DNA of 48,438 nt from Candidatus Mucispirillum faecigallinarum. GTDB lineage: Bacteria; Chrysiogenota; Deferribacteres; Deferribacterales; Mucispirillaceae. The stretch covers positions 1-48,438 of the forward strand of contig DXAQ01000032.1 of the NCBI GenBank assembly GCA_019116905.1, given 5' to 3'. Numbering within the stretch: position 1 is the stretch's first letter; each line of letters opens with the position of its first letter. This document shows positions 92 through 33,960 of this stretch, in pieces. Made by a program: the position numbers and the translations under genes. Below the pieces are notes generated by a model. It saw only the letters and a list, made by a program, of their open reading frames with translations. It did not search any database and was not told where the DNA came from.

Positions 92-1573
92 TTATTTTAA
101 TTTTTCTTTTAAAATATTATTTATTACACCAGGGTTTGCTTTGCCTTGAGTGGCTTTCATTACCTGCCCTACAAAAAAGCCAAACAGTTTATCTTTACCA
201 GCTTTATATTCTTCAACATTTTTAGGGTTATCAGCAATAATTTTATCAATTATTTTTTCAATTTCTTTTGTATCTGAAACCTGTTTTAACCCTTTTTCTT
301 CAATGATTGATTCAGGCTCCTGATTATTTTCTTCAATCATAGGTAAAAGCTCTTTTGCAATTCTTAAACCAATAGTGCCGTTTTCAACTAATGCTGTAAT
401 TCTGCCAAGACGTGATGCAGTAGTTTTTAAATCTCTAATATTTTCTATTTGTTTTTCACTCATAATTGCAGCAAGTTCAACAAGTATTAATGTAGCAGTT
501 TTTTTAGGGTCGCTGCCTTTTTCTTTCATAGCTTCTTCAAAATATTCAGCAACTGTTTTTTCTGCTGCAAGCCTTTTTGCCTCATCTTCACTTAATTTAT
601 ATTCTGATATAAAACGTTTAGTTTTTTCTTCAGGCATTTCAGGCATACTTTTTTTAACTTTTTCTAAAAGTTCATCTGTTACAATTAATGGAAAAGCTAA
701 ATCAGGGTCTGGAAAATATCTGTAATCGTTAGCGTTTTCTTTGCCGCGCATACTTCTTGTTTCTTTTTTATTAGCATTAAAAAGCCTTGTTTCCTGATAT
801 ATTTCTTCCCCATTTTCATAAGCATCTACATGGCGGTTTGCTTCATATTCTATTGCCTGCATAAGATAGCGTATAGAGTTTACATTTTTTATTTCGCATC
901 TTGTTCTAAGTTCTTTTGAACCAACAGGGCGCACTGATACGTTAGCATCACAACGCATAGAGCCTTCGTTCATATTGCCGTCGCATGTTTCAAGGTAGCG
1001 CACAATACTTCTTAATTTAGTAAGGTAGGCACCAGCCTCAAAAGGAGAGCTCATATCTGGTTTAGATACAATCTCCATTAATGCAACACCAGAACGGTTT
1101 AAATCTATACAGCTTTTACCAGGCAGCATATCATGAATTGACTTACCTGCATCCTGCTCTAAGTGCAGCCTTTCTATACCTACTCTTTTTGTAGAGCCGT
1201 CTTCCAGCTCAATATCTAAATAGCCATTACCAACAATAGGTTTATCATACTGGCTTATTTGGTAGCCCTGCGGCAAATCTGCATAAAAATAGTTTTTTCT
1301 TGCAAATACTGACTCTTTATTTATTTGAGCATTTAAACCAAGCCCTGTTTTAACAGCCTGTTCTACACAGAATTTATTTACAACAGGCAGCATACCAGGA
1401 AAGCCTGCATCAATAAACGCTACATGGTCATTAGGTGTGCCGCCGCTTGCAGCAGATGCACCTGAAAAAAGTTTTGCATTTGATATAACTTGACAGTGAA
1501 CTTCAAGCCCTATTACAAGCTCCCAGTCGCATGTTCTTCCTTTTATTATATAACTCATTATTTTCTGCTCCAA
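92..1573 (-). CDS. gatB: Asp-tRNA(Asn)/Glu-tRNA(Gln) amidotransferase subunit B
   Basis: Protein reads [13 protein letters not shown]...[15 protein letters not shown]...[15 protein letters not shown], typical GatB; adjacent to gatA and gatC. Confidence 0.97.
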
Positions 1574-3018
1574 CTATTATTTTGTTCCAGCACATAAGCA
1601 CCTTTAAAAAGTGTTTCTTCATCAAAATCTCTGCCTATAAGCTGTAAACCGATAGGAAGTCCATTATCTGCTTTTTTAACAGGTACAGAGATTGCAGGAA
1701 GTTTTGCAAGGTTTATAGGTACAGTAAATGCATCCTGCAGATAGTTTGTTACTGGGTCAAAAGATTTACTTTCTTCTATTGTAAAAGCTGTTGTTGGTGC
1801 ACATGGGGTAAGGATTGCATCAACTTCTTTAAAAGCATTTAAATAATCCTGCCTAATCAGTTTACGCACATTTGATGCTTTTAAGTAGTATGCATCATAA
1901 TAACCTGCAGAAAGCACATAAGTTCCTATCATTATACGCCTTTGAACTTCTGCTCCAAAGCCTGCACTTCTTGTATTTTCATACATTTCATCAAGTGATG
2001 AACCGTCCACCCTTAAACCAAAACGAACGCCGTCATATCTTGCTAAGTTAGATGACGCCTCAGCTGGAGCAATAATATAATATGTTGCAAGAGCATATTT
2101 CATATTAGGAAGTGATATTTCTTTAACTTCTGCCCCTGCTTTTTCTAATATTTCTTTACCCTCCTGCCATGCAGAAGCGATTTCAGAATTTAAATCGTTA
2201 TTTAAAAATTCTTTTGGCATACCTATTTTTAAGCCTTTTACACCTTGTTTAAGTGTTGCTTTAAAATCAGGCACTGCAATATTTGCACTTGTAGAATCAA
2301 ATTCATCAAAACCAGCCATTTTTTCAAGCATAATAGCAGCATCTTCTACAGTTTTAGTCATAGGTCCTGCTTGGTCAAGTGATGATGCATAAGCGATTAT
2401 ACCATAACGAGAGCATCTTCCGTAGCTTGGTTTAATGCCTACAATACCGCAGAAAGCAGCAGGCTGACGAATAGAGCCGCCAGTATCTGTTCCTGTTGCA
2501 CCAGCACACATATCAGCAGCTACAGCAGCAGCAGAGCCGCCTGATGAACCGCCTGTTACAACTTCTGCCCCATCGAGCCTTTTAACTGGGTTTATAGTCT
2601 GGCCAAAATAGCTTGTTAAGTTAGCGCCACCCATTGCAAACTCATCCAGGTTAGTTTTACCTGTAAAAACACTGCCTGCTTTTAAAAGATTTGCAGTAAC
2701 AGTTGATTCATAAGGTGGGATAAAATTTTCTAATATTTTACTGGCAGCAGTAGTTCTTATGTTTTCTGTACAGAATAAGTCTTTTATTGCAAGTGGAACG
2801 CCGTCTAAATCAGAAAGCCTTTCCCCTTTGCTTATTCTTTTATCACTTTCTGCTGCCTGTTTTAATGCATATTCTGGAGTTTCTGTAATAAAAGCATTAT
2901 ATTTTCTACCCTGCTCCATTTTTTCTATATAGGCTTTTGTTACTTCTGTTGAAGAAAACTCTTTATTATTAAAGCCTTTTGAAAGTTCTGCAATTGATAA
3001 TGATGTTAAATCTGCCAT
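1558..3018 (-). CDS. gatA: Asp-tRNA(Asn)/Glu-tRNA(Gln) amidotransferase subunit A
   Basis: Amidase signature [13 protein letters not shown]; GatA-like length; overlaps gatB start. Confidence 0.97.
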
Positions 3019-3290
3019 TATTCCACCACCTTAGGAACAGTAAAAAAATGCTCGTATGGCTCAGTAGCATTTTTCATAAGTTTTTCTGATAAGTTACTAA
3101 TAGTAACTTTATCTTCCCTTTGTCTTAATGGGGCAGTTTCTTCTTCAATTACTTTGGAAGTATCTGCACTTTGTAAAATTTCCATCCATTTTAAAATGTC
3201 ATTTAAATCTTTTGCCATACTTTCAACAGTGCCTTCATCAAATTTCAGGCGTGCAAGTTTAGCAATGTGGTTAATTTCTTTTGCGTCCAT
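3018..3290 (-). CDS. gatC: Asp-tRNA(Asn)/Glu-tRNA(Gln) amidotransferase subunit C
   Basis: Small GatC-like protein ([12 protein letters not shown]...[12 protein letters not shown]) immediately upstream of gatA. Confidence 0.95.
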
Positions 3291-3369
3291 ATTATGTCCT
3301 TGTTATGTCCTTTTATATTTTTTAACAGTGTAATATTACACAATTTTTTTTATAAAGAAAAGCAGGAAT

Positions 3370-4734
3370 TTATCTATAAAACCAAAATCTTACTAATTTT
3401 TCTTTTCTGCTGTTTGGAGAAAAGCGTAAATCATTATCAAAAAAAGAATATTTTTGATAAATATGTTTTTTGTGGGAAAAAGTATCAAAGCTGTATTTTC
3501 CATGATATGCACCCATTCCGCTTGCACCAACACCGCCAAATGGGGCATAATTATTAGTAATATGCACCATTAAATCATTTACAGCACCGCCCCCAAAAGA
3601 TATGTTTTCTATAACTTTCTTTATCAGTGATTTATCACTTGCAAAAATATACAGCGCCAGCGGCTTATCAAGTGATTTAAACTGATTTATAACATCATCA
3701 ATATTAGTATATTCTATAACTGGTAAAACAGGGGCAAATATTTCTTCCTGCATAACTCTATCGCTGTATGTTACATTATCCATAATAGTCAAATCAATTT
3801 TCAGTTTCTGCATATCTACTAAACCGCCAAAAACTACTTTTGAGCTGTCTATTAAACGAACTGCCCTTTCAAAATGTTTTTTTGAAATAATTTTTGGAAA
3901 TGCATCATTTTCAGAAGAATGAGCACCATTAACAAGTGAACTTTCTGCAATTAAAGCACTTATTAAATCTTTTTTTACTCGTGAATGGCATAATATATAA
4001 TCTGGGGCAACACATGTCTGGCCAGCATTTAATGATTTTCCCCATATTATTTTTTTTGCTGCATCTTTTATATCTGCACTGCTGTCAATAATACATGGAC
4101 TTTTCCCCCCAAGCTCAAGCGTAACGGGGGTTAAATTAGTGCTTGCTGATTTCATAACAATTTTGCCAACATTTTGGTTGCCTGTAAAAAATATATAGTC
4201 AAACCTTTCAAGTAAAAGAGCAGCGCCGGTAACAGCATCGCCCCTGATAGGTTTAACATATTCTCGTGGAAATGTTTCATTAATAAGCTGAGAGATAATA
4301 AGGGATGTATTTTCTGAATATTCAGATAATTTAAGCACAGCGCAGTTGCCAGCTGCAATGGCTGCAATAAGGGGGCATAAAGTAAGCTGCACAGGATAAT
4401 TCCATGGGGAAATAATCAATACTACACCATAAGGCTCATAATGAATATAACTTTTACCAGGCTGCAGCGTTACTGGCACTTTTACTTTTTTAGGCTTTGC
4501 AAGTTTTTTAAGGTTTTTAATATAAAAATTAATTTCATCCATTACTATACCAGTTTCTGTAATAATGGCTTCATAGCTTGATTTATTCAAATCATCATGC
4601 AGTGCCTGCAAAAGTGCTGCATCATATTTTAAAAGTGATTTTTTTAACGCTTTAAGCTGCTCTATTCTAAATTTAATACTTAATGTTTCGCCACTGTTAT
4701 AAAATTCCCTTAACGGTCCTACAGTATCTTTCAT
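3370..4734 (-). CDS. Aldehyde dehydrogenase family protein (class 3-like)
   Basis: ALDH motifs ISPWNYPVQL, FTGNQNVGKIV, LELGGKSP, NAGQTCVAPDY. Start moved from ORF-track 4848 to 4734 (MKDTVGPL) because of GGAG just upstream and because the longer frame runs into a terminator hairpin. Confidence 0.9.
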   Translation of the reverse strand: MKDTVGPLREFYNSGETLSIKFRIEQLKALKKSLLKYDAALLQALHDDLNKSSYEAIITETGIVMDEINFYIKNLKKLAKPKKVKVPVTLQPGKSYIHYEPYGVVLIISPWNYPVQLTLCPLIAAIAAGNCAVLKLSEYSENTSLIISQLINETFPREYVKPIRGDAVTGAALLLERFDYIFFTGNQNVGKIVMKSASTNLTPVTLELGGKSPCIIDSSADIKDAAKKIIWGKSLNAGQTCVAPDYILCHSRVKKDLISALIAESSLVNGAHSSENDAFPKIISKKHFERAVRLIDSSKVVFGGLVDMQKLKIDLTIMDNVTYSDRVMQEEIFAPVLPVIEYTNIDDVINQFKSLDKPLALYIFASDKSLIKKVIENISFGGGAVNDLMVHITNNYAPFGGVGASGMGAYHGKYSFDTFSHKKHIYQKYSFFDNDLRFSPNSRKEKLVRFWFYR

Positions 4735-32418: not shown

Positions 32419-32562
32419 TTATTCAAGAATATATTTAAAATATGGCAGTTTATCTATAATATCTGCACAAATATAAAATATTTTTTTCAAAATGACACAT
32501 ACTGTCGCACAGGTGCTATACATTCATACATAGAAAAAAATTTATAAAATGTAAAAAAATAC

Positions 32563-32592
32563 TTGACAATCCCCACCCCCCCCAAGTATAAC
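32563..32592 (+). promoter_or_regulatory. Sigma70-type promoter with C8 tract in the -35/-10 spacer
   Basis: TTGACA (32563-32568), 18-nt spacer containing CCCC-A-CCCCCCCC, TATAAC (32587-32592). Confidence 0.75.
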
Positions 32593-32622
32593 GGCTTATA
32601 TTTTATTAAAAAGGAGAATGTT

Positions 32623-33894
32623 ATGAAAAAACTACAAAACTTAATTTTTGCATGCCTGCTTACTCTTGGGCTTGCTGCATGTGCTAATGATGATAAGTCA
32701 TCAAACGCTGCACCAATCATCAATACTGATGAAGAAGTTACTGAATCTTTTGAAGCAAAACTTAATGAAAGTGCTGAAAAGACTATTACTTTTACAAACC
32801 CTCATCTAACAGATGCTGACCTTGAAGTAAGTATTTACAATAATGAATCATCTATTGAAATTGATACAGCAAGTTCAACATGTGATAGTGTTACTAATAA
32901 CTATGGTAACTATACTATTAAAAGCAGATTAGCAGCTGGAGGGTCCTGCAAAATAAAATATACTTATACACCTACTCAATTTGCTACAAAAGCACTTGAA
33001 TTAAATATTGATTATCATAAAGTGTATGAAGCAGTATGCCCAACACCTAACTATGTGCCTAGTTTAGAACAAGCTATGACTAGAAATAAATATGTTAATA
33101 TGACTATCTATAACTATGCAGTAGACAGCAACGGCACAAAATCACCAGATATTATAAATGTAGAAATTAACCTGGAATGGTATGTATCTGGCAACTTGAT
33201 GAATTATACTAACCCAGCTCCTTATTCTCAAACTTTTAACCTGCCAGCAAAAAAAGGAGAATATTTATTTAATAATTATGGTATTGAATTAACTTCTAAT
33301 AATAATAACTGCTCAATATCTGGCAGCACTCTTACAGTAAATAATGATGTAAATAATGATAATGGCTGCTCTATTACTTATTCAACTACAATAGATAATA
33401 TTACTTCTATCCAGTTTTCCCCTAAGGAAGAAGCAAACCCATACTACAATGTAAATGTAAACATAAACAGTAACTATACATATAACTTATTAAGTGCGCC
33501 TTATTATAATACATTTGGACCTGAATATTTTGCAACTAATTTAAGTGGTGATACTTATATTGATGCAGGTTTACTTAGCAATAATGAAAAAATCACAAGT
33601 TATGAAATAACTGGCACAAATAAAGATAAATTTAAAGTTGCATCTACAAAACATAATGGCTGCAAAGTAACAGATACAGAAATATCAATACCAGCAGAGC
33701 AGGAAAACTGCTTTTTCACTGTTGAAATAGCAGACATTAAAGAAAGTGGAGATTTTACTGCTACTTTAAATACAACTTCAAGCACTAACGGCAGCCAAAC
33801 ATATAATATTCAAGGTGAGGTAAGTCTTTTATTAAATGATAAGTTATCAACTTACTGCCAGCAAAATACTCAAAGTAAAAAATTATTTAATTAA
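32623..33894 (+). CDS. Predicted surface lipoprotein with repeated Cys-paired Ig-like segments
   Basis: Lipobox MKKLQNLIFACLLTLGLAAC; SD AAGGAG; three segments each with a Cys pair. Confidence 0.8.
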   Translation: MKKLQNLIFACLLTLGLAACANDDKSSNAAPIINTDEEVTESFEAKLNESAEKTITFTNPHLTDADLEVSIYNNESSIEIDTASSTCDSVTNNYGNYTIKSRLAAGGSCKIKYTYTPTQFATKALELNIDYHKVYEAVCPTPNYVPSLEQAMTRNKYVNMTIYNYAVDSNGTKSPDIINVEINLEWYVSGNLMNYTNPAPYSQTFNLPAKKGEYLFNNYGIELTSNNNNCSISGSTLTVNNDVNNDNGCSITYSTTIDNITSIQFSPKEEANPYYNVNVNINSNYTYNLLSAPYYNTFGPEYFATNLSGDTYIDAGLLSNNEKITSYEITGTNKDKFKVASTKHNGCKVTDTEISIPAEQENCFFTVEIADIKESGDFTATLNTTSSTNGSQTYNIQGEVSLLLNDKLSTYCQQNTQSKKLFN

Positions 33895-33930: not shown

Positions 33931-33960
33931 CTCCTGCAACTTGTTGCAGGAGTTTTCGTT
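33931..33960 (+). terminator. Rho-independent terminator after the lipoprotein gene
   Basis: CTCCTGCAAC-TT-GTTGCAGGAG followed by TTTTCGTT. Confidence 0.88.

Follow-up and report, generated by a model that had tools for sequence, protein, structure and literature searches.

Does a run of cytosines lodged between the -35 and -10 elements of a lipoprotein promoter in Candidatus Mucispirillum faecigallinarum act as a length-variable control of expression, and is it one of a set? The window, i.e., the whole stretch of 48,438 nucleotides that was analysed, is contig 100 of the host assembly G000 (2.31 Mb in 168 contigs). An earlier note had described a TTGACA-18 nt-TATAAC promoter with C8 in its spacer, just upstream of a Shine-Dalgarno sequence and a lipobox-bearing gene. 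Direct reading of the letters reproduced the promoter exactly and confirmed its position (AAGGAG, ATG at 32623, lipobox LAAC).

32553-32559, plus strand: A7 tract resembling an UP element, 5′ of the -35 hexamer; the genus set is also A-rich there
32563-32568, plus strand: -35 hexamer TTGACA, letters read directly
32569-32586, plus strand: 18-nt spacer ATCCCCACCCCCCCCAAG, i.e., AT CCCC A CCCCCCCC AAG, letters read directly
32571-32583, plus strand: interrupted poly-C tract C4-A-C8 (C4 at 32571-32574, A at 32575, C8 at 32576-32583)
32587-32592, plus strand: -10 hexamer TATAAC, which is TATAAT in orthologues
32611-32616, plus strand: Shine-Dalgarno sequence AAGGAG, letters read directly
32623-33894, plus strand: lipoprotein gene, 423 aa, lipobox LAAC (ORF and lipobox; predicted string of Ig-like/ASH-like beta-sandwiches)
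33931-33960, plus strand: palindromic stem-loop followed by a T run, a likely terminator from sequence reading

The -10 hexamer ends 30 nt before the start codon of the lipoprotein gene and is not preceded by TGn. The C8 is the only run of at least 8 in the window, shuffles of which contain 0.08 such runs on average. The 423-aa ORF carries a lipoprotein signal at its N terminus, MKKLQNLIFACLLTLGLAAC. Pfam gave no family above the cut-off for this protein, and a fold search returned generic Ig-like/ASH beta-sandwich likeness with low TM-scores. With moderate confidence, the protein is predicted to be a chain of beta-sandwich domains; because the likeness is generic and the scores are low, we claim no specific function for it. 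Plasmid sequences contained no match to the gene.

We determined the spectrum of C/G runs in the host assembly. There are 17 runs of six, one of seven, five of eight, 10 of nine and three of ten. Eighteen runs thus reach at least 8, with a peak at 9, against about 0.9 expected from the decay of the shorter runs (how often a run was seen to extend by a further C). A second peak at long run lengths is the typical look of slippage-prone contingency tracts. Four tracts in the host genome directly follow TTGACA and two bases, and a relative assembled as a single contig has more long tracts than the about eighteen of the window's assembly.

The arrangement was then sought across ten genomes of the genus with the pattern TTGACA-N0-9-C7+-N0-8-TAWAAT, the reversed pattern serving as a control; genomes were covered by such searches and by sampled stretches. 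A C7+ tract between TTGACA and TAWAAT was matched 51 times, in nine of the ten genomes, and the reversed control once; with this strict pattern, each Mucispirillum genome that has such promoters holds three to eight. Elsewhere in the family, one of five genomes, from a sister genus, has three such promoters, two of which precede a lipoprotein and a secreted-type protein. None was found in 45 genomes outside the family, and viral contigs yielded no poly-C spacer promoter of this type. Among 50 parsed sites, including that of the window, the tract is C9 in 36 and the spacer 15 nt in 32; overall, tracts range from C7 to C11 and spacers from 11 to 19 nt. A single gene family holds C7, C8, C9, C10 and C11 tracts. 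Most of the tract lengths in this analysis were taken from metagenome assemblies. Alignment of C9 sites shows a common order of elements: an A-rich stretch, C, TTGACA, TT or AT, C9, (A/G)TGA and TAWAAT. The share of A reaches 60-83% at positions -10 to -4 before TTGACA (30 aligned C9 sites), (A/G)TGA supplies the TGn of an extended -10 element, and the outer flanks are weakly conserved. The C4AC8-type interruption of the window's tract is the sole case among the ten genomes. As in promoters of the fetA/porA type, then, a homopolymer of about 8 or more lies between -35 and -10, and it is kept at orthologous or related genes with differing lengths.

Two side observations concern these promoters. 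On the minus strand of L254 (G007:C1:861200-865200), near 1960, a C10 promoter with a good Shine-Dalgarno sequence and ATG precedes an early stop (MKKFLF*), which may mark a pseudogene or a second site of frameshifting, within a T run. Uncultured gut Clostridia, several from Lapin bins, have multiple TTGACA-poly-C-TAWAAT promoters among the matches listed (L073, L074, L092, L099 and L109, among others), with spacers, among those same matches, of 15-16 nt or 18-20 nt. They are apparently convergent with the Mucispirillum set; about half of the matches in the scan that lists them, we estimate, may be due to chance, and we drew no census from it.

The window's lipoprotein gene has homologues in five other genomes, at 28-63% identity, and the poly-C promoter is present at five of its six homologues; at the sixth, the weakest match, the flank examined holds no C6+ run. 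All five tracts are uninterrupted C9 runs in the same place, with spacers of 15, 15, 15, 15 and 19 nt, versus 18 nt in the window. At the syntenic site in genome G003, where the neighbouring U32-type peptidase (a family name derived from its sequence) is common to both and 94% identical, the aligned intergenic regions read AAT-C9-ATG-TATAAT in G003 and AT-C4AC8-AAG-TATAAC in the window, with spacers of 15 and 18 nt, respectively. As the homologues keep the tract and the intergenic regions align at this site, the tract predates the species, and at one site both its length and its letters have changed.

What lies behind these promoters was assessed with a single lipobox rule. The first gene codes for a lipoprotein at 34 of 45 readable sites, versus five of 207 baseline ORFs taken from the window and ten sampled stretches of the single-contig relative, one of those five being the window's own gene. 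This enrichment (Fisher p about 3e-27, with no correction for homology) is spread over ten clusters, unrelated to each other at E 1e-5, that together make up the 34 lipoproteins. Five of the remaining eleven first genes begin with a secretion signal and a typical cleavage site, as read by eye. The lipobox and the lipoprotein enrichment thus point to control of surface-type genes, another property of fetA/porA-type promoters. One of the clusters is an RCC1-repeat family. Within the host assembly, L221 (G000:C10) 1501-3780 lies behind a C9 promoter and encodes a large lipoprotein built of eukaryote-like RCC1 repeats, which has many partial relatives across the genus.

Long tracts also occur inside genes of the same genome. 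Four molybdopterin-reductase-like genes, on two of which Pfam was run, have a poly-G tract just after a Tat-type signal, at the following positions.

L255 (G000:C24:3000-9500), 4267-4274: poly-G tract
L257, reverse complement, 1997-2004: poly-G tract
L028, 616-625: poly-G tract
L256, 396-405: poly-G tract

Two of these are G10 tracts in frame and two are G8 tracts out of frame, the latter followed by ORFs that stay intact for at least 742 and 665 codons. Tracts both in frame and out of frame in one genome are the usual signature of translational phase variation, and the four together look like an on/off switch of a respiratory enzyme family. Other tracts lie inside MBOAT acyltransferase, RgpF-like, sulfatase, PKD-domain and unknown genes (L003, L005, L001, L019, L017 and L022); they suggest that surface polysaccharide modification may be phase-variable.

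We consider it probable that expression in Mucispirillum is controlled at multiple genes by slipped-strand phase variation acting through the length of the promoter spacer. In a sigma-70-type promoter of this kind, a hypermutable poly-C tract would fix the -35/-10 spacing. As slipped-strand errors during replication gain or lose C's, the spacer would lengthen or shorten by 1 bp per step, and the lipoprotein gene would be transcribed more or less strongly. Since one arrangement (A-tract, cTTGACA, WT, C9, RTGA, TAWAAT) would operate at several unrelated lipoprotein or secreted-protein genes per genome, each cell would draw its own lipoprotein combination. Tract length differs between species at orthologous sites, each species being represented by one genome; slippage within a population, its effect on transcription, the surface exposure of the products and the selective reason are what we infer. 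The uniformity of C9 could mean a fixed length, yet the coding tracts also peak at C9. The proposal of the earlier note that slippage in the spacer controls the lipoprotein gene thus gains from the tracts at orthologues and at many lipoprotein genes of the genus, although the window's copy is the odd one.

The likely output of each tract length depends on the spacing that the host prefers. Promoters of the genus without poly-C (TTGACA with TGn-TAWAAT) most commonly have 16 nt, then 13 and 18, and RCC1-family relatives without the tract have ordinary spacers of 16 and 18 nt. In two genomes, the spacing of TTGACA/TATAAT pairs has its peak at 16-17 nt; their matches do not exceed those of the reversed control, so that this peak is suggestive as the host's ordinary spacing and leans also on the promoters without poly-C. 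On this scale, the C9 promoters with 15 nt would be about one base short, and a gain of one or two C's would be expected to raise expression, whereas the window's spacer would be one or two bases long, reaching 17 nt with the loss of one C and 16 nt with the loss of two. The typical promoter may therefore be strongest near C10-C11 and that of the window near C6-C7. Because the typical state is close to that peak, control is probably graded, and a clean on/off switch, which the earlier note had also allowed, is less likely.

The window's copy, with its interrupted tract, 18-nt spacer and weaker -10 hexamer, is the least certain member of the family. It would be a drifted member whose A interruption should reduce the switching rate, and its C8 part could still slip. 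It may instead be a frozen former contingency locus, fixed at 18 nt by expansion and the A interruption, so that it is constitutively weak today and its relatives continue to switch, a reading to which we give roughly one chance in three. The uniqueness of the interruption and a TATAAC in place of TATAAT, with no TGn, speak for it, but the C8 itself is uninterrupted, and the genome contains other putative C8 tracts, in two of which an intact ORF follows out of frame. This alternative concerns the window's copy alone and is compatible with slippage elsewhere in the genus.

The other alternatives deny a switch in the promoter spacer altogether. The very uniform TTGACATT-C9-ATGATAWAAT at unrelated genes might mark a lipoprotein regulon in which the tract is a conserved element, structural or bound by a regulator, with C9 fixed for function. 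We regard this as improbable, as the C9 peak recurs in coding tracts with no promoter role, which stand both in and out of frame, as one family spans C7-C11, and as spacers run from 14 to 19 nt. A frameshift switch of translation, with the tract inside an N-terminal extension from TTG 32563, takes its appeal from a frame that in the window is open through the tract and in phase with the ATG. It was rejected as extremely unlikely: in most homologues the frame is closed by stops, or shifts, on the way from the tract to the ATG, so the tract is not conserved in frame, there is a good Shine-Dalgarno sequence at ATG 32623, and a lipoprotein signal must be N-terminal. Nor do we see any real prospect that the run arose by chance and lacks function. 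It is indeed a single instance in the window, but the excess of runs in the genome, the genus-wide promoter tracts, the lipoprotein enrichment and the conservation of the arrangement led us to discard this idea.

Slippage in the promoter spacer has well-described counterparts. Random-slippage control of surface proteins has mostly been described in pathogens, and Mucispirillum is a mucus-dwelling commensal of mice in the phylum Deferribacterota. In Neisseria fetA (frpB), a poly-C run likewise lies between -10 and -35, and transcription of a surface protein varies with the length of the run (PMC5320596); there, few genes per genome are involved (three transcriptional loci are listed for N. gonorrhoeae) with C10-C14, whereas Mucispirillum has a near-identical arrangement with C9 at several lipoprotein genes. 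A homopolymer also occupies the -35/-10 spacer of Neisseria meningitidis porA, where one nucleotide alters the transcript level (PMC3899988); unlike the poly-C lipoprotein set of Mucispirillum, porA is a single porin gene with poly-G. In Treponema pallidum, of another phylum, the length of a G homopolymer modulates transcription of the outer-membrane protein genes TP0126 and tpr (PMC10118025), the tract being on the coding strand, 5′ of the start site, of few genes. Campylobacter jejuni resembles Mucispirillum in its many poly-G/C tracts per genome, 29 of 7 or more with several at 9-10 units (PMC4965091), but nearly all are intragenic, and no promoter-spacer class serving lipoproteins is described there. 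A search of titles and abstracts in one open-access collection gave no paper joining Mucispirillum with phase variation, and the M. schaedleri genome paper mentions neither phase variation nor homopolymers. The mechanism is already known from fetA and porA, and its multi-gene use in Deferribacterota appears to be undescribed.

Whether multi-locus phase variation is truly limited to pathogens, or seems so through biased databases, is a question raised in a 2025 review (PMC11868660); a mouse commensal for which the assembly analysed here shows about eighteen long tracts would bear directly on it. Mucispirillum can be grown in culture and belongs to the defined Altered Schaedler Flora (PMC3983311, PMC9600240), so that any switching could be tracked in gnotobiotic animals and counted in mouse-gut reads already available. 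Our analysis suggests that Mucispirillum may raise or lower individual surface-type proteins by random slippage. With somewhat less assurance than for the mechanism itself, we favor the view that near-identical poly-C promoters across the genus diversify the lipoprotein repertoire combinatorially by transcription, in parallel with poly-G switches inside genes for respiratory reductases and surface polysaccharides. If true, unrelated genes of a gut commensal in the Deferribacterota would be under a contingency system that works through promoters.
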